In this document: piece after piece, positions 5,008 through 56,032 of the stretch
Layout of the letters: each line of letters starts with the position of its first letter
Numbering within the stretch: the stretch's first letter is position 1
NCBI RefSeq assembly: GCF_913774235.1
Contig: NZ_CAJYDW010000012.1
Location: 434,001 to 498,000 of the forward strand
Origin: an uncultured Pseudomonas sp.
GTDB lineage: Bacteria > Pseudomonadota > Gammaproteobacteria > Pseudomonadales > Pseudomonadaceae
DNA length: 64,000 nucleotides
Direction: 5' to 3'
Position numbers and translations under genes: made by a program
Notes under the pieces: generated by a model
What the model was told of the DNA's origin: nothing
The model's database searches: none
The model's input: the letters and a program-made list of their open reading frames with translations, nothing else

Positions 5008-5493
5008 GTGACCACTCAGACAGCCAATGGCCTCCTGCGTCTCGCCACCCTGGCCGACGTGGAGGCCCTCTTCGCCATCCGCACCGCGGTGGCGGACAAC
5101 GCCCTGACCCGAGGGCAACTCGCCGACCTGGGCATCACTCCCGACACCATCGCTACGGCCCTCGCCGCCGAACCCTGCGCCTGGGTGCTGGAATTGGGCG
5201 GGGAGGTGGTGGGCTTCAGCATGGTGGATCTAGCCGCCGGCGAGGTTTTCGCCCTGTTCGTCCGGCCCGACTGTCAGGGGCGGGGCATCGGTAGCCGGCT
5301 GCTGGCCGCCGCCGAGACGGCTCTGTTTCGCCGCCATGCCCTGATCTGGCTGGTCACCGATGGGGCCTCCTCGGTAGGGGCCAATGCCTTCTATGAGGCT
5401 CAGGGGTGGCGACGGGTCGCCCAACTGGAAGGCACGGATGTTCGCTATGAGAAGACCCGCATCCTCGAACGGGATGCCAGCGACATCGCCTGA
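5008..5493 (+). CDS. GNAT-family N-acetyltransferase
   Basis: 161-aa acetyltransferase of the GNAT fold, moving an acetyl group from acetyl-CoA to an amine on an unknown substrate. The acetyl-CoA loop is clear: ALFVRPDCQGRGIGSRLL (residues about 81-98) has the Q/RxxGxG/A motif, and an NAFYEAQGWRRV segment near the C-terminus is typical of motif B. Translation appears to start at GTG 5008; the ribosome binding site is weak. It stands alone, convergent with the DUF3108 gene. Confidence 0.8.
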   Translation: MTTQTANGLLRLATLADVEALFAIRTAVADNALTRGQLADLGITPDTIATALAAEPCAWVLELGGEVVGFSMVDLAAGEVFALFVRPDCQGRGIGSRLLAAAETALFRRHALIWLVTDGASSVGANAFYEAQGWRRVAQLEGTDVRYEKTRILERDASDIA

Positions 5494-5520
5494 AGGACGG
5501 CCATCGCGGGCTGAACCGGC

Positions 5521-5550
5521 AGAAAAGAAAACGCCCTCCGAAGAGGGCGT
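5521..5550 (-). terminator. Terminator of the purM-purN-DUF3108 unit
   Basis: ACGCCCTC-CGAA-GAGGGCGT (5531-5550) forms an 8-bp stem with a tetraloop. On the minus strand it is followed by a T-rich run (TTTTCTTTTCT). It therefore terminates leftward transcription after the gene at 5568, and possibly the acetyltransferase as well. Confidence 0.85.
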
Positions 5551-5567
5551 CGTGGTCAAGACCCGGA

Positions 5568-6281
5568 TCAGTTGGCGCCTTTCACCGTGCGCCCATTGAC
5601 CGTGCCTTCCTTGAGGCTGGTCTGGTATTCCTTGCCGTCGCTCTCCTGCTGGTAGAGACGCACCAGCAGATAGTCCCAGTCCTTGGCGAACCACAGCTCA
5701 GTCTTGCGGCTGCTCTTGGTGGGGTCGCGCACGCGCTCGACCTTGATGGCATCGAATAGGCCCAGCGGCGTACGGATACGCTCCGGACCTATGACGCGGA
5801 AGTCATAGGTATCGATGCTGTCGCCGTCGGCGATCTGGTAGCTCATGCTCTTCTTGCCGTCGGCGACGTCCTGTTGCAGCTTGAGCTGATAGGTCGACTT
5901 GTCCAGCAGGCCGCGATCCAGCGGCAGGGTGACCGGATCGTCCTTGTCCTTGCCGGTGACCTTCTTGGCGGCCCAGTCGAAGGTCAGCTCGCTTTCGCGG
6001 CTCTTGCCCAGCCCACTGCGTTTGTATTGGTAGGTATCCGGCAGGAAGGCGTCGCCCTCATGGCGGAAGGTACTGGACTCGCTAAGGCCGGCCACCAGCA
6101 TGGAGGCCTCGAATTTCAGCTCCCAGCGGCCATCGGGCTCTTTCTCCAGCGAGCGCTCGGCAGAACCGCTGACCGGCATCTGCTTCCAGTCGGCGGTGTA
6201 GCTGGCCGTGAAGGGTTGCAGGTCGAAGGCGAAAGCCGACGCGCTGCAGAAGGCGGCCAGTAGGAACAACAGACGTCGCAT
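5568..6281 (-). CDS. DUF3108 exported protein
   Basis: 237-aa protein with an N-terminal signal peptide (MRRLLFLLAAFCSASAFA), so periplasmic or outer-membrane associated. The mature part looks like the beta-rich DUF3108 fold: FTASYTADWKQMPVSGSAE near the start, then paired strands with YQIADGDSIDTYDFRV. The start ATG at 6281 has AAGGAGAA upstream. It follows purN by only 15 bases and is probably co-transcribed with purM-purN, an arrangement conserved in Pseudomonas. No enzymatic motif is seen; a role in envelope or lipid handling is a guess. Confidence 0.85.
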   Translation of the reverse strand: MRRLLFLLAAFCSASAFAFDLQPFTASYTADWKQMPVSGSAERSLEKEPDGRWELKFEASMLVAGLSESSTFRHEGDAFLPDTYQYKRSGLGKSRESELTFDWAAKKVTGKDKDDPVTLPLDRGLLDKSTYQLKLQQDVADGKKSMSYQIADGDSIDTYDFRVIGPERIRTPLGLFDAIKVERVRDPTKSSRKTELWFAKDWDYLLVRLYQQESDGKEYQTSLKEGTVNGRTVKGAN

Positions 6282-49845: not shown

Positions 49846-50117
49846 GACGCCTGCCTTGAGAAAGATGGCTTCTAGACCGCAGCCACGGCTTTTCGTCTCG
49901 AACGGGTACGAAGGCTGACGATGATGTCAATGTGCCACTCATACCCTTTGACCTGCCGCTTGGCTTTTTTAACTACAAAAGGTGACATGCATCACGAAAA
50001 TGGCGACATAGAGGCTGTTTACGGATCGCTGTCCCGGCCAGACTCTTGGCTCTCCGCCGGTCACGGGCCTAAGCCCGTGAGCCGCGCCGAGCCCCTCTGT
50101 CTTGGGACAAGGACGCC

Positions 50118-50564
50118 ATGAGAAGACCTTCGCTCGCCTCGTTGTTGCTGCTGTTGTGGATGTTGGCAAATCCTTTGTTCGCTGCCGAAGACGGCCATGT
50201 GGCGCTGATCAAGAGTCTTTCCGGCAGCGTCAAGATAGAGCGTCAGACGACGACCCTCGATGCCCACGCCGGAGACACCCTGCAGGTCTCGGACCGGCTG
50301 CAGGCCGGGCCCGAGGCTACCGCGGCCATCGTCTTCGTCGACGGTACCTTGCTCACCCTGGGCAGCGGCGCTGATATCCAACTGCGTGATTACGTCTTCG
50401 AGCCGCGCAGCAGCCGCTATGGCTTTTCGCTCTATCTGCACAAGGGATCGGCGATCTACTCCTCCGGCAAGATCGGCAAGGTCGCCCCGGATTCGGTGAA
50501 GATCGAGACACCCACCGCCACCATAGGCGTGCGCGGCACCCGTTTCCTGGTCCAGGCGCAATGA
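50118..50564 (+). CDS. FecR-domain exported protein
   Basis: 148-aa secreted protein: signal peptide MRRPSLASLLLLLWMLANPLF to A, then a FecR domain across nearly the whole mature part. Marks are VALIKSLSGSVKIERQ, LQVSDRLQAGPEATAAIVFVDGT, YLHKGSAIYSS and VKIETPTATIGVRGTRFLV. Unlike anti-sigma FecR proteins, it has no cytoplasmic N-terminal domain and no internal membrane segment, so it should be a free periplasmic ligand-binding or scaffold domain. It overlaps the OmpA-type gene by four bases and heads an operon with a CHASE2-HD-GYP protein. A sensory or partner role for that protein is inferred. Confidence 0.87.
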   Translation: MRRPSLASLLLLLWMLANPLFAAEDGHVALIKSLSGSVKIERQTTTLDAHAGDTLQVSDRLQAGPEATAAIVFVDGTLLTLGSGADIQLRDYVFEPRSSRYGFSLYLHKGSAIYSSGKIGKVAPDSVKIETPTATIGVRGTRFLVQAQ

Positions 50565-51190
50565 AGGCTTCCTTCCTTTCCGGGCTTTCCTCCCGCGCTC
50601 GCCTGGCCAGCGTCCTGTTGCTGGCCCTGCTGACGGTGGGCTGCGCCAATCAACCACAAACGCGCGTGACGCTGATGCCTGACGAAGACGGCCACGTCGG
50701 GGCGGTCACTGTCCGCAATGCCGGTGGGCAGCAGTCGATCGATCAAGGCTTCGCCGAAGTGACCGTTGGCCGCGTGGGTGAGGCGCCTACGCCTCCGCAG
50801 GCAGTGGGACAGCCGGCCTTCGAACAGCAGCATCGCGCGGTACTCGCGGCTCAGCCTTCCCCACCCAAGACGTTCATCCTCAATTTCCTCTCCGACAGCA
50901 TGGAGCTCACCGCGCAATCCAAGGCGCTGCTGCCCGAAGTGCTGGAGACGGCGCGCCAGCGGATGCCTACCGAAATCTCGGTGTTCGGTCATGCCGATGC
51001 GTCCGGGACCGCCGCCTACAACCTCGATCTCTCTGCCCAGCGTGCGCGCAAGGTCGCCGGTTTGCTCCAGCGTCTCGATCCCAAGCTGCCCATCAACGTC
51101 GAATTCTTCGGCGACAAGGTTCCGCTGGTACCCTCTCGCCCTGGCAAGTCCGAGCCGCGCAATCGACGGGTCGAGATCCTGATCCTCTAG
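50561..51190 (+). CDS. OmpA-family lipoprotein
   Basis: 209-aa lipoprotein: signal ending LLALLTVGC (lipobox Cys at about residue 27). An unstructured middle region follows. The OmpA C-terminal domain spans about 105-209: FLSDSMELTAQSKALLP, ISVFGHADASGTAAYNLDLS, QRARKVAGLLQ and EPRNRRVEIL with the Asp/Arg pair that binds diaminopimelate in peptidoglycan. It should anchor an outer-membrane lipid to the cell wall. It is coupled to the FecR gene, with the CHASE2-HD-GYP gene 10 bases downstream. Confidence 0.9.
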   Translation: MKASFLSGLSSRARLASVLLLALLTVGCANQPQTRVTLMPDEDGHVGAVTVRNAGGQQSIDQGFAEVTVGRVGEAPTPPQAVGQPAFEQQHRAVLAAQPSPPKTFILNFLSDSMELTAQSKALLPEVLETARQRMPTEISVFGHADASGTAAYNLDLSAQRARKVAGLLQRLDPKLPINVEFFGDKVPLVPSRPGKSEPRNRRVEILIL

Positions 51191-51200
51191 AGGCCGATGC

Positions 51201-53195
51201 ATGAATTCCGTCGCCTCCGTGCTGCGTCGCCGGGCTCCCTGGATGTTCGCCCTCAGTCTCGGGCTGTCCCTGGTCTTCGGCATCGGCGCCCTGCTTGACG
51301 TCGCTCCGCTGCAGTATCTCAATCGACTCTCCTACGACCAGCTCAGCCGGCTCTTCACGCCGGATCGGGACGCTACCCGGGTCCAGGTGGTGAGCATCGA
51401 TGAAGCCAGCCTCGCGGCCCTTGGCCAATGGCCCTGGCCGCGCTATCGGGTGGCCGAACTGTTGAGCCGGATCGCCGAAGCCCAGCCGGCGGCGATTGCC
51501 GTCGACATCCTCTTCAGCGAGCCCGACCGGACTTCGCTCAAGGCCTTGCAGCAGACCTTCCAGGACGATTTCGGCGTGCAGCTGAGCTTTTCCGGCGTGC
51601 CCGTGGACCTGCAGGACAACGACGGCTACCTCGGCCACGTCATGGACCAGGTAGGCGCGGTCGGCGCGCGCTTTTTTGCCCTCGATAAAAGCCTCCCCCC
51701 CACCAGCGGTCTGCGTACCGGTGTCGGCTTCGAGGGGGCGCTCGATACTCTCCGCCTGCCCACGGCCAGTGGCGTGCTGGACAGCGTCCCCGCCATCGCC
51801 AGCCAGACGCGATTCAGCGGCTTCATCAACAGCCAGCGCGACAGCGACGGCGTCGTGCGCCGGGTACCCCTGCTCATGAGCCATCAGGGCATCGTCCATC
51901 CGAGCCTGGCGCTGGCGGCTACCATGCGGGCGCTCGGCTTGACCCATGGCGTGATCGAGTCCGGCCCCATCGGACCGACCCTGCTGCTTGGTAGTCTGCG
52001 CCTGCCCATCGACGACCAGGGCCAGGCCTTACTGCGATTGAATGCCGATGCCGAACGCTATCCGCGCTCTTCCGCGCTGGATGTGCTCAGGGGCGCCCTG
52101 CCGGACGGCGCGCTCCGTGGGAAAATCGTGCTGGTCGGCGTCTCGGCGGCGGGCTTCAACGATTTCCATGCCACGGCACTCGGGCAGATCTTTTCCGGCG
52201 CTCGCTTGCAGGCGGCCCTGGCCCAGGATCTGCTGGATGCCACCCTGGTGCGGGTCCCGCAATTCGCCGGTCCCTTGCAGCTGGCGCTCTGCCTGCTCTG
52301 CGGTCTGCTGCTGTCGGCCGGCTTCTTCGTCAATCGCAGCCAGGGCCGCTTCGCGCTGCTGGCCGTTACCCTCATCGTCGCGCCCCTGCTGATCGGCGCC
52401 TGGCTGTTCGGGGCGCACGGCATCTTCATGCCCCTGGCCGGCCCGCTGCTGCTGGTGGTGGTGCTCTCCGGCCTCGCCATGGTGACGCGGATCGTGGTCG
52501 CCCAGCGTCACGAACAGCGCTGGCGCAAACGCCTGGAGCGCTCGCGCCAGGTCACCATCGAGTCCATGGCTGCAGTGGCCGAGACCCGTGATCCCGAAAC
52601 CGGCGCCCACATCAAGCGCACCCAATACTATGTGCGCGCCATCGCCGAGGAGCTGCACCGCACGGGCCAGGATCCTGACCTGCTGACGCCGGAATACATC
52701 CAGCTGCTGTTCCTCTCCGCGCCCTTGCACGACATTGGCAAGGTCGGAGTGCCGGACGCCATCCTGCTGAAACCGGGCCGACTCACTCCGGAAGAAATGG
52801 CGGTGATGCAGAAGCACGCCGAATTCGGTCGCCAGATCATCCTCAATACCGCCAGCCACCTGGAGGACGACAACTTCCTTGCCCTGGCCGCCGACATCGC
52901 CGGTACCCACCATGAAAAGTGGGATGGCACGGGGTATCCGAACGGGCTGGCCGGGACCGACATCCCCCTGGCCGGGCGCATCATGGCGGTGGCCGACATC
53001 TACGACGCCCTGATCAGCCGGCGCTGCTACAAGGAGCCCTTCAGCCACGAGCACTCCCTGGAGCTCATGCGAGAGTTGAGCGGCAGTACCTTCGAGCCGC
53101 GGATACTGGATGCCTTCCTCGCCATCGAGCCGCAGATCCTGGCCATCGCCAAGCGTTTCCGCGACGAAAGCAGCGGCACCCGCCGCCTGCTCTGA
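51201..53195 (+). CDS. CHASE2-HD-GYP membrane protein, probable c-di-GMP phosphodiesterase
   Basis: 664 aa. One N-terminal membrane helix (MFALSLGLSLVFGIGALL), then a CHASE2 extracytoplasmic sensor domain (about 40-330; VQVVSIDEASLAALGQWPWPR, AIAVDILFSEPDR). Three more membrane helices lie at about 350-430 (LQLALCLLCGLLLSAGFF onward). The cytoplasmic HD-GYP domain (about 450-650) has HDIGKVGVPD with His510, HHEKWDGTGYP with the GYP at 578-580, and MAVADIYDAL. Metal and substrate motifs are intact, so it should degrade c-di-GMP. CHASE2 is more often joined to adenylate cyclases or kinases. The upstream FecR and OmpA genes suggest it reads a cell-envelope signal. Confidence 0.92.
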   Translation: MNSVASVLRRRAPWMFALSLGLSLVFGIGALLDVAPLQYLNRLSYDQLSRLFTPDRDATRVQVVSIDEASLAALGQWPWPRYRVAELLSRIAEAQPAAIAVDILFSEPDRTSLKALQQTFQDDFGVQLSFSGVPVDLQDNDGYLGHVMDQVGAVGARFFALDKSLPPTSGLRTGVGFEGALDTLRLPTASGVLDSVPAIASQTRFSGFINSQRDSDGVVRRVPLLMSHQGIVHPSLALAATMRALGLTHGVIESGPIGPTLLLGSLRLPIDDQGQALLRLNADAERYPRSSALDVLRGALPDGALRGKIVLVGVSAAGFNDFHATALGQIFSGARLQAALAQDLLDATLVRVPQFAGPLQLALCLLCGLLLSAGFFVNRSQGRFALLAVTLIVAPLLIGAWLFGAHGIFMPLAGPLLLVVVLSGLAMVTRIVVAQRHEQRWRKRLERSRQVTIESMAAVAETRDPETGAHIKRTQYYVRAIAEELHRTGQDPDLLTPEYIQLLFLSAPLHDIGKVGVPDAILLKPGRLTPEEMAVMQKHAEFGRQIILNTASHLEDDNFLALAADIAGTHHEKWDGTGYPNGLAGTDIPLAGRIMAVADIYDALISRRCYKEPFSHEHSLELMRELSGSTFEPRILDAFLAIEPQILAIAKRFRDESSGTRRLL

Positions 53196-53629: not shown

Positions 53630-56032
53630 ATGCAGCTCTTTTCCGTGCGCATCCTGGCGCTCTCCGTTTCGCTCGGCGTGGCAGCGCTCGCCCAGGCCGC
53701 CCCCGTTTCGTTGTCACAACCCGCGCAGCCGCTCGCCGATGCCTTGCAGAGCTTCGCGCGCGCCAGTGGCCTGCAGGTGAACTACGATCCTGCCGCCCTG
53801 GCGGGCAAGCGTGCGCCGGCGCTAGCGGGTCGGTTGGAGCCGGAAATCGCCCTGCAACGCCTGCTGGCCGGCAGCGGCCTGGCCGCCTCGGTCACGGGCA
53901 ACGTCGCCACCGTCGCCCCGGTGGCCAGCCAGGCGGCGTCGGGGAGCCTGGCCCTTGACGCCACCACCATCACCGCCGACGACGGCTCGCTCAGTGGCCG
54001 GGCGACCACCGAGGGCACCCATTCCTACACCACCGGGGCCATGAGCACCTCCACCGGCCTGCCGCTGTCCATCCGCGAGACGCCCCAGTCGGTGAGCGTC
54101 ATCACCCGGCAGCGCATGGAAGACCAGGGCATGAGCGACCTCAACGACGTCGTGCGCTACGCCCCAGGGGTGACGCTGAACAAGTTCGGTGGCGATCGCC
54201 AGGAATTCCTCTCGCGCGGCTTCCGCATCGACAACATCATGTACGACGGGCTGCCTACCACCGCGGGTACCTTCACCCTGGACACCCTGTCCTCGGCGGA
54301 CCTGGCCCTCTACGATCGCGTCGAAGTGGTGCGCGGCGCCACCGGCCTGATGACGGGCGCGGGCGATCCTTCGGCCACCCTGAACCTGGTGCGCAAGCGG
54401 CCGACCGCCTTCCCGCAAGTCAGCGTCACCACCAGTGCCGGCAGCTGGGATCGCTACCGCACCGAGGTCGATGCCTCCAACAAGCTGAACGAAGCCGGTA
54501 CCCTGCGCGGCCGGGCCGTCGCAGCCTATGAGGACGGGCACAGCTTCCAGGACGTACGCGAGCGCCAGCGGCAGACCTTCTACGGCGTGCTCGAAGCCGA
54601 TCTCTCCGATAGCACCACCTGGACCATAGGCGCGTCCAAGCAGCGCGAGGACAAGACCTCCGACTGGGGCAGCCTGCCTAGCGGACCCAACGGCGAAGAC
54701 CTGCACCTGTCACGCTCCACCTTCCTCAGTGGCGACTGGTCCTACTGGGATCAGGACACCTACACCCTGTTCTCCGACATCACCCACACCTTCGACAATG
54801 GCTGGAAGGCCAAGCTGGCGGCGCAACAGGTCTGGGCGAATTCCGATACCTTCTCCAACTACCTGACCTCCACGGCGGCGGATTACAGCTACACCTCCGT
54901 CAGCGACCTCGGCACCGCCTCCGGCGCCTACCGCACCGATTCCGACCAGCTCAATCTCGATGCCTCGGTCAGCGGCCCGTTCCAGTTGCTGGGGCGAGAA
55001 CACGAGCTGGTAGCCGGGATCAGTCGGCGCCAGGAAAAGTTCTATCAACGGGGGGGCTATTCGGGCGTGACTCCGGTCGACATCTTCAACTTCCGGCCCA
55101 GCAGCGTCGTCAAACCGGACAAGGCCGCGTTGACGCCCTACGCCAGCAAGAACACCACGACCGAAGAGGCGGTGTATGCGGCGGCGCGCTTCAACCCCGT
55201 CGATCCGCTGCACGTCATCGTCGGCGGCCGCGTCAGCTGGTACGACTTCGATAACCTGTACAGCGACAACGACTACAAGGCCACACGCGAAGTCACCCCG
55301 TACGCCGGCATCATCTACGACCTGAACGACACCTACTCGGTATACGCCAGCTACACCGAGATCTTCAAGCCGCAGAGCGAACAGAATGCCGCTGGCTCGG
55401 TCCTGGCGCCCATGACCGGCAAGAGCTACGAAATCGGTCTCAAGGGCAGCTACTTCGAGGGTGCGTTGAACGCCTCCGTCGCCCTGTTCGATACCCTCCA
55501 GGAAAACCGCGCCTACCTGCCGGCCAACCAGGCCACCTTCTGCCCCGGCTATCCGGCGCAGAGTTGCTACAGTGCAGCCGGCGAAGTCCGCAGTCGTGGC
55601 ATCGACGCGGAAATTTCCGGCCAACTGGCGCCCAACTGGCAGGCCTCGGCCGCCTATACCCTGTTGTTGAGCGAATACACCAAGGATGTTCAGTTCGAGG
55701 ATCGTCGCTTCGCACCGGATCAGCCCAAGCATCTGTTCAAGGCCGCCACCAGCTATCAATTGACGGGTGCCCTTAACAAATGGCGGATCGGCGCGGACAT
55801 GCAGGCGCAGAGTGAGACCTTCCAGCGGGTCGGCAACGGCGAAGCCAAGCAGGACAGCTATGCCGTCATGGGTTTGATGGCGGGTTATCGCTTCAACGAG
55901 CACTGGGATGGTCGCGTCAACCTCAACAACGTCTTCGACGAAAGGTACTGGCAGGGTATTCCGGAAGGCACTGGTCAGGGCGTCTACGGCGATCCGCGCA
56001 ACGTCATGCTCAGTCTGAAGTGGACCCTCTGA
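53630..56032 (+). CDS. TonB-dependent siderophore receptor with STN domain
   Basis: 800-aa outer-membrane iron-siderophore receptor. Signal peptide to ALAQA; STN (secretin/TonB short N-terminal) domain at about 30-100 (QPAQPLADALQSFARASGLQV); plug domain at about 140-245 (RETPQSVSVITRQRMEDQG, DRVEVVRGATGLMTGAGDPS); 22-stranded barrel to the end, finishing VMLSLKWTL. The STN domain is the part that talks to a FecR-type anti-sigma factor in cell-surface signalling, but no sigma/anti-sigma pair is adjacent. The FpvA/FoxA type is likely; the siderophore is not identified. Confidence 0.92.
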   Translation: MQLFSVRILALSVSLGVAALAQAAPVSLSQPAQPLADALQSFARASGLQVNYDPAALAGKRAPALAGRLEPEIALQRLLAGSGLAASVTGNVATVAPVASQAASGSLALDATTITADDGSLSGRATTEGTHSYTTGAMSTSTGLPLSIRETPQSVSVITRQRMEDQGMSDLNDVVRYAPGVTLNKFGGDRQEFLSRGFRIDNIMYDGLPTTAGTFTLDTLSSADLALYDRVEVVRGATGLMTGAGDPSATLNLVRKRPTAFPQVSVTTSAGSWDRYRTEVDASNKLNEAGTLRGRAVAAYEDGHSFQDVRERQRQTFYGVLEADLSDSTTWTIGASKQREDKTSDWGSLPSGPNGEDLHLSRSTFLSGDWSYWDQDTYTLFSDITHTFDNGWKAKLAAQQVWANSDTFSNYLTSTAADYSYTSVSDLGTASGAYRTDSDQLNLDASVSGPFQLLGREHELVAGISRRQEKFYQRGGYSGVTPVDIFNFRPSSVVKPDKAALTPYASKNTTTEEAVYAAARFNPVDPLHVIVGGRVSWYDFDNLYSDNDYKATREVTPYAGIIYDLNDTYSVYASYTEIFKPQSEQNAAGSVLAPMTGKSYEIGLKGSYFEGALNASVALFDTLQENRAYLPANQATFCPGYPAQSCYSAAGEVRSRGIDAEISGQLAPNWQASAAYTLLLSEYTKDVQFEDRRFAPDQPKHLFKAATSYQLTGALNKWRIGADMQAQSETFQRVGNGEAKQDSYAVMGLMAGYRFNEHWDGRVNLNNVFDERYWQGIPEGTGQGVYGDPRNVMLSLKWTL

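Follow-up and report, generated by a model that had tools for sequence, protein, structure and literature searches.

A 64,000-nucleotide stretch of the genome of an uncultured Pseudomonas sp. (positions 434,001 to 498,000 of contig NZ_CAJYDW010000012.1; hereafter the window) encodes, in one compact operon, a FecR-domain protein, an OmpA-domain lipoprotein and a CHASE2-HD-GYP receptor. This unit is real and conserved and, judged from its sequence, is best read as a FecR-CHASE2 envelope-sensing system equipped with a YfiB-like lipoprotein and a predicted cyclic di-GMP (c-di-GMP) phosphodiesterase. The three reading frames, their strand and their tight spacing, first described in an earlier note on this DNA, held when reread from the sequence: the FecR and OmpA genes overlap by 4 bases at an ATGA (FecR ends at 50564 and OmpA starts at 50561), and a 10-base gap separates the end of the OmpA gene (51190) from the start of the receptor gene (51201). 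Pfam likewise returned all four domain names given there (FecR, OmpA, CHASE2 and HD-GYP). Receptor similarity to named records places the host in the oryzihabitans group of Pseudomonas, the nearest named record among the matches listed being Pseudomonas sp. EpS/L25 (95% identity), followed by six records with 76-78% receptor identity, of which four carry the name P. oryzihabitans and one that of P. rhizoryzae. The operon comprises the following features:

50118..50564, + strand: gene for a small, secreted FecR-domain protein (open reading frame of 148 amino acids; Pfam FecR)
50118..50183, + strand: probable cleavable signal peptide, residues 1-22 (read by eye)
50292..50555, + strand: FecR domain, residues 59-146, ending two residues before the stop (Pfam)
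50561..51190, + strand: gene for an OmpA-domain outer-membrane lipoprotein (open reading frame of 209 amino acids; Pfam OmpA)
50642..50644, + strand: lipobox cysteine C28, TVGC-AN (by eye)
50660..50767, + strand: family-specific N-terminal segment, residues 34-69, candidate partner-binding part (alignment conservation)
50885..51166, + strand: OmpA domain of the peptidoglycan-binding type, residues 109-202, with D146 and R161 (Pfam)
51201..53195, + strand: gene for the CHASE2-HD-GYP receptor (open reading frame of 664 amino acids; Pfam CHASE2 and HD_5)
51297..52307, + strand: CHASE2 domain, residues 33-369, expected to be periplasmic (Pfam, hydropathy)
52254..52508, + strand: C-terminal membrane segments, residues 352-436 (hydropathy)
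52527..53168, + strand: HD-GYP domain, residues 443-656, with complete metal and GYP motifs (Pfam, PDB profile search, alignments)

Genome contigs were scanned for the receptor, and the best 80 of 567 confirmed relatives were examined, a number that is a lower bound and a sample biased toward close relatives of the receptor. The order FecR, OmpA, CHASE2-HD-GYP was found on one strand in 76 of these 80 loci, including three with split frames (the receptor in L039 and L069, FecR in L052), and such retention argues that the arrangement is not due to chance. Of the four exceptions, L031 and L059 are truncated at contig ends, and L036 and L079 have other genes upstream. Phylum labels, taken from record titles that include many metagenome-assembled genomes, assign 37 of the 76 loci to Pseudomonadota, 28 to Thermodesulfobacteriota, 5 to Myxococcota and one each to Bacteroidota (a 3.6-kb contig), Deferribacterota, Nitrospinota and Nitrospirota, with 2 unlabelled. 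The order, whose conservation had been set beforehand as a test, is thus kept well beyond close strains, under seven phylum labels.

A second sample, chosen regardless of neighbouring genes, consisted of 398 Pseudomonadota genomes searched with the receptor profile at E<=1e-130. Six genomes matched, including that of the window, and in all five others FecR and OmpA genes adjoin the receptor gene on its upstream side. One of these five loci is from the same genus, and another (L217) combines a CHASE2 domain that is otherwise similar with a GAF-PAS-HisKA output, the end of this receptor being cut by the locus boundary. All three genes are also present in eight more loci of the genus (L082-L089). 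Full-length CHASE2-HD-GYP receptors occur in 10 of the 13 genomes of the genus, whereas the 235 other genomes of the family have none, a distribution that makes horizontal entry into the genus from outside likely. The remaining three genomes of the genus (G002, G004 and G005) had no CHASE2 match. A CHASE2 tree was built with 79 rows: 29 from the 76 HD-GYP loci, 48 from the 80 loci of other kinds described below, and 2 orphans. In it, the window unit lies beside rows from Rhodanobacter and Pseudoxanthomonas, and the 29 HD-GYP rows form one group with a Shimodaira-Hasegawa-like approximate likelihood ratio test (SH-aLRT) value of 98. We use this tree as support only, since many kinase rows are gappy and the HD-GYP rows were picked for their resemblance to the window protein.

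The FecR and OmpA proteins are associated with CHASE2 and not with c-di-GMP as such, for related pairs adjoin receptors with other outputs. From the strongest CHASE2 matches listed for 299 Pseudomonadota genomes we picked 80 loci of other kinds across families, none of these loci having a plain HD-GYP output by motif, and scanned their neighbours on either strand from about 3.5 kb upstream to 1 kb downstream. FecR was matched in 25, the OmpA family in 6 and both in 4, counts that are lower bounds because several regions stop in or near these genes. A search starting from the FecR profile gave 153 of the 398 genomes with E<=1e-12; after six places tied to receptor matches, we examined 20 of the 21 best (E<=5.1e-33; G069:C42 was omitted). 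Every one of the 20 regions has an OmpA-family match, mostly adjoining FecR, although OmpA lies beyond the CHASE2 gene in L255, is divergent in L257 and L260 and stands about 0.5 kb apart in L263. The profile alignment spans the N-terminal segment of the window lipoprotein in all 20 OmpA relatives, with a hydrophobic stretch and a [DE]G core visible by eye (weakest in L266); a regular expression for this motif matched 7 of them. CHASE2 lies within the fetched stretch in 11 of the 20 regions, and it is present in 18 of 18 genomes with a FecR-OmpA pair compared with 186 of 299 in the Pseudomonadota sample. According to Pfam, the outputs found with the pair are a cyclase (L254), a histidine kinase (L256), GAF plus HD_5 (L258 and L262), SpoIIE (L192) or none (L264), and motifs identify six further nucleotide cyclases. 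In L121, L139, L192 and others, pair and receptor gene are convergent, and a linkage that holds in this orientation too is more than operon inertia. The idea of an envelope-to-c-di-GMP operon, as put forward in the earlier note, is therefore supported in part, with the amendment that the pair belongs to CHASE2 whatever its output.

The FecR domain beside CHASE2 comes in several settings. Among the 13 FecR proteins encoded on the same strand within 400 bases upstream of CHASE2, ten were scanned: three carry LysM at E<=1e-4 (L149, L168 and L173), one carries TPR (L164) and the others have FecR alone or with weak Ig-like matches. In five regions of one family (L268-L272), which are examples and not a rate because they were picked for closeness of coordinates, the FecR domain sits near the N-terminus of frames of 1465-1788 amino acids on the same strand upstream of CHASE2; these giant genes directly precede the CHASE2 gene, a cyclase by motif, in four regions and lie about 3 kb off in L271. 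Pfam bacterial cadherin/Ig repeats are present in L120, which covers part of the giant gene of L268. Such varied attachments, together with adhesin-like matches, suggest that the FecR domain itself may be the partner of CHASE2. We tentatively entertain the broader notion, to which we give somewhat less than an even chance, that CHASE2 is a reader of FecR-domain proteins, with FecR as the common periplasmic ligand and an exchangeable output; what is sensed would then be set by FecR's attachment or captor, be it an OmpA lipoprotein bearing the conserved N-terminal segment, a wall-binding LysM domain or a giant surface protein.

Other neighbours were recorded in the same surveys. Open reading frames upstream of CHASE2 genes in L120-L199 matched HD_5 in 12 of 73 cases and GAF in 11 of 73, so that HD-GYP-like and GAF proteins are often encoded upstream of CHASE2. 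A CHASE2 protein of about 490-500 amino acids with no evident output domain is encoded about 2 kb downstream of the operon in L002 (10162-11661, - strand) and also occurs in L005. In L266, a region without CHASE2, a small protein resembling RsbW-type anti-sigma kinases by eye (5194-5607) adjoins the FecR-OmpA pair.

Pairwise distances were correlated over 69 sequences including that of the window. Those of FecR and of the OmpA domain correlate with CHASE2 distances at r=0.89 and r=0.81, and with HD-GYP distances at r=0.85 and r=0.75, respectively. Given CHASE2, the partial correlations with HD-GYP are 0.27 for FecR, 0.08 for the OmpA domain and -0.01 for the OmpA N-terminal segment; given HD-GYP, those with CHASE2 amount to 0.47-0.55.

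We consider it highly probable that the pair is a dedicated input of CHASE2. Several observations weigh against this: the CHASE2-HD-GYP genes of L036 and L079 have no adjoining FecR-OmpA pair; 53 of the 80 CHASE2 regions of other kinds matched neither FecR nor OmpA; 9 of the 20 FecR-OmpA places have no CHASE2 within the stretch, four of them being cut by contig ends (L252, L257, L260 and L263); no OmpA-family match was found in the five giant-FecR regions; and the correlations come without a permutation test, while the stronger conservation of HD-GYP can weaken its partial correlations. The first two of these would suit a structural explanation, in which FecR and OmpA are wall-anchoring proteins merely co-expressed with a CHASE2 receptor that senses a small molecule alone. 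That explanation sits poorly with a pair that stays with CHASE2 despite changed outputs and gene orientation, and with the presence of CHASE2 in all 18 checked genomes that have the pair, and we regard it as unlikely.

The FecR protein of the window has FecR (PF04773, E=1.9e-10, residues 59-146 of 148) as its sole Pfam family. Its alignment, built from the window protein and those of 74 of the 76 loci (L002 and L052 were omitted for short or split frames), has ten invariant columns among 75 sequences. The cytoplasmic anti-sigma part and the membrane helix are absent; with 148 amino acids and a FecR domain alone, the protein is not an anti-sigma factor, and the earlier suggestion that the domain is put to another use here holds. 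The other FecR protein of the genome (L201) is of the ordinary type and, by eye, precedes an STN-type TonB receptor. In PDB, the FecR profile matches 5ix9 (E=4e-5), a chain named antifreeze protein that we take to be part of the Marinomonas ice-binding adhesin. Among NCBIfam models, the window protein matches Leptospira Lsa33 (E=4.6e-11) more strongly than it does the LapA retention model, a weak match (E=0.004); both are far under cut-off.

The receptor is the sole CHASE2 match of its own genome (G000), which also has two FecR, two HD_5 and 48 GGDEF matches. According to hydropathy, its CHASE2 domain (PF05226, E=3.4e-53, residues 33-369) lies between a membrane segment on the N-terminal side and a cluster of them on the C-terminal side (352-436), and is followed by HD_5 (PF13487, E=4e-30, residues 461-634 of 664). 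In an alignment of 74 receptors, that of the window and those of 73 of the 76 loci (omitted were L039 and L069, with split frames, and L050, at a contig end), H470, H510, D511, K514, H539, H570 and D599 are invariant, while H571 is kept in 69 (Gln in 5), E466 in 70, Y579 in 73 and P580 in 72; 64 of the receptors have the motif H[HQ][ED]xxDGxG[YF]P in full. The claim that all motifs for hydrolysis are in place is thereby upheld for metal ligands and GYP, and the activity is predicted. The counterpart of E466 is, in PmGH (4mcw), a Glu four residues ahead of a conserved His and, in 4r8z, a Pro; this Glu presumably goes with a third metal, and 4r8z is, we assume, PA4781. The two best PDB matches of the HD-GYP domain are the c-di-GMP phosphodiesterase 4r8z and PmGH 4mcw, and the third is a cGAMP-specific HD-GYP protein.

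Retention of the metal and GYP residues is what an enzyme would be expected to show, and related pairs go with cyclases, kinases and a phosphatase, all of them outputs. Both points count against an inside-out arrangement as in LapD or DvhD, in which HD-GYP would bind c-di-GMP as a receptor and CHASE2 would control the periplasmic FecR and OmpA proteins. Such an arrangement has a precedent in the Desulfovibrio protein DvhD, an HD-GYP c-di-GMP receptor with a proposed periplasmic action in the available text of PMC13090378, and the resemblance of the FecR profile to part of an adhesin would fit it, yet we think it improbable here. About as improbable is a different substrate, such as 3'3'-cyclic GMP-AMP (3'3'-cGAMP): the third PDB match is specific for cGAMP, and many carriers of the unit are of the deltaproteobacterial type, some lineages of which make cGAMP (PMC13090378, in the part available), but the two best PDB matches and the 48 GGDEF matches of the genome point to c-di-GMP.

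The lipoprotein carries an OmpA domain (PF00691, E=2.7e-12, residues 109-202 of 209). Its alignment joins the window sequence to those of 73 loci; of the 76, L003, L004 and L005 were omitted because the chosen start is too short. D146 is kept in 72 and R161 in 73 of the 74 sequences, and we assume that they bind peptidoglycan as the Asp and Arg of OmpA and Pal do; its description as a peptidoglycan-binding lipoprotein is borne out to this extent, as predicted binding. The lipobox position is Cys in 62 of the 74 and gapped in 10, in which the start was probably chosen too far downstream. With its OmpA domain, the Asp and Arg, and a lipobox read by eye, the window protein has the features of Pal/OmpA lipoproteins. 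In the N-terminal segment, L38 is kept in 71 and P40, G44 and G47 in 72 each of the 74 sequences. YfiB is among the PDB matches of the lipoprotein profile, and the NCBIfam YfiB model scores 47.7 bits against a cut-off of 128 bits; by sequence, then, the lipoprotein is like YfiB and is not YfiB.

In P. aeruginosa, YfiB needs both peptidoglycan binding and its outer-membrane anchor to keep YfiR off YfiN (PMC3375315, PMC4887326, in the sections available). By analogy, the window lipoprotein would be tethered to the outer membrane and attached to peptidoglycan, and the small FecR protein would be free in the periplasm as a direct partner of the CHASE2 ectodomain. The condition of outer membrane and wall might decide whether the conserved N-terminal segment of the lipoprotein catches or releases FecR, whereupon CHASE2 and the joined HD-GYP domain would change state and c-di-GMP hydrolysis would be altered; capture may raise or lower the phosphodiesterase activity. 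We infer binding, direction and signal from genes, domains, motifs, neighbourhood and output exchange, which were observed. As a whole, the proposal that FecR and OmpA form a dedicated envelope input of CHASE2, in response to which the HD-GYP domain hydrolyses c-di-GMP, appears slightly better than evenly likely, and for the YfiBNR-like capture of FecR by the lipoprotein we see about equal chances either way. Against it stand the absence of any YfiR homologue, which makes the sequestration step an analogy; the best PDB match, which is Pal and not YfiB; the best NCBIfam match, YiaD, with all NCBIfam matches of the lipoprotein under cut-off; the His that replaces the lipobox Cys in two of the 74 lipoproteins; and the commonness of OmpA domains in general.

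YfiBNR is similarly a three-gene unit of a small periplasmic protein, an OmpA-like lipoprotein and an inner-membrane c-di-GMP enzyme (PMC3375315, in the part available). It has YfiR, PAS and a GGDEF cyclase, where FecR, CHASE2 and an HD-GYP phosphodiesterase are found here; of its components, the operon shares the OmpA-like outer-membrane lipoprotein and lacks YfiR and the diguanylate cyclase YfiN. The gene order of YfiBNR presumably differs as well. A search of the whole window genome for YfiR (PF13689) gave zero matches, and YfiR was matched in 0 of 13 genomes of the genus and in 39 of 235 others of the family. Replacement of YfiBNR by the operon, that is, mutual exclusion, was considered and dropped: whether or not they have the operon, the 13 genomes of the genus all lack YfiR, as do 196 of the 235 others.

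A partnership of FecR and CHASE2 is already published for a Burkholderia kinase operon (PMC5192318) and for Campylobacterota cyclases (PMC9239204), as far as the available text of each goes. In the BiofilmReg operon of Burkholderia and relatives, a periplasmic FecR protein directly precedes the CHASE2 receptor and an insertion mutant lost biofilm; the tightly packed FecR and CHASE2 genes and a peptidoglycan-binding module recur in the window, with the OmpA gene between. BiofilmReg differs in its histidine kinase and response regulator, in LysM on the FecR protein itself and, in the sections available, in having no OmpA lipoprotein (PMC5192318). Pfam found neither LysM on FecR nor a histidine kinase or response regulator in the window operon. 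Campylobacterota CHASE2 adenylate cyclases are likewise clustered with a FecR-domain protein, but with a cyclase output, a TPR protein and a cyclic AMP (cAMP) phosphodiesterase, and the available text mentions no OmpA lipoprotein (PMC9239204). More distant parallels, each as described in the accessible part of its source, are Sinorhizobium meliloti CyaD1, CyaD2 and CyaK, CHASE2 cyclases activated via the outer-membrane protein NsrA, which differ in the beta-barrel, plant protein signal and cAMP output (PMC13001267); the Magnetospirillum mtxA cluster, in which the gene of an exported TPR/Ig-like protein, neither FecR nor OmpA, directly precedes a CHASE2 cyclase gene (PMC4439547); and Lap/Dvh adhesin control, in which an HD-GYP membrane protein is linked to periplasmic events, the Dvh receptor being dCache-PAS-HD-GYP and thought to work inside-out with a protease (PMC13090378). 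Neither the FecR-OmpA-CHASE2-HD-GYP triple nor a shared FecR-OmpA cassette was found described in the searched titles, abstract openings and passages of open-licence papers, which is weak evidence of absence.

Two further elements flank the operon:

49982-49995: CRP/Vfr-like palindrome GTGACATGCATCAC (GTGA-N6-TCAC), between a divergent phosphatase gene and the FecR gene
53630-56032: STN-type TonB-dependent siderophore receptor, directly downstream of the operon (Pfam STN)

The palindrome, whose CRP/Vfr-like label is our assumption, may tie the operon, or the divergent gene, to cAMP. GTGA-N6-TCAC occurs at 2 sites in the window against 0.65 expected (2 were reached in 15 of 100 shuffles) and is exact in 6 of 8 aligned members of the group, L003 and L006 being one base off. 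The closest NCBIfam models of the TonB receptor are FauA and FhuE, both under cut-off. That FecR works with this receptor and passes siderophore occupancy to CHASE2 is very improbable: the next gene does encode STN (PF07660, E=1.2e-8) and a TonB receptor gene follows the operon in L003, L004, L006, L007 and L008 and lies further downstream in L005, but 434 bases separate operon and receptor gene, the closest relative (L002, 95% identity) carries other genes at that place, only 2 of 73 loci outside the Pseudomonas group (L026 and L043) match the receptor at E<=1e-8, distantly and elsewhere in the locus, and signalling FecR proteins are known to carry an additional C-terminal part whereas the window protein, with no anti-sigma part, stops right after its FecR domain.

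CHASE2 occurs widely, with matches in 186 of the 299 Pseudomonadota genomes sampled, and the factors that it recognises were described in 2016 as not known (PMC5192318, in the part available). The FecR-OmpA cassette common to different outputs is the part of specialist interest, and a pair that accompanies CHASE2 across outputs is a concrete candidate for its input, testable by binding. If the reading of the operon as an envelope-sensing phosphodiesterase system is true, c-di-GMP breakdown would gain an envelope-sensing counterpart to YfiBNR, a driver of c-di-GMP synthesis.

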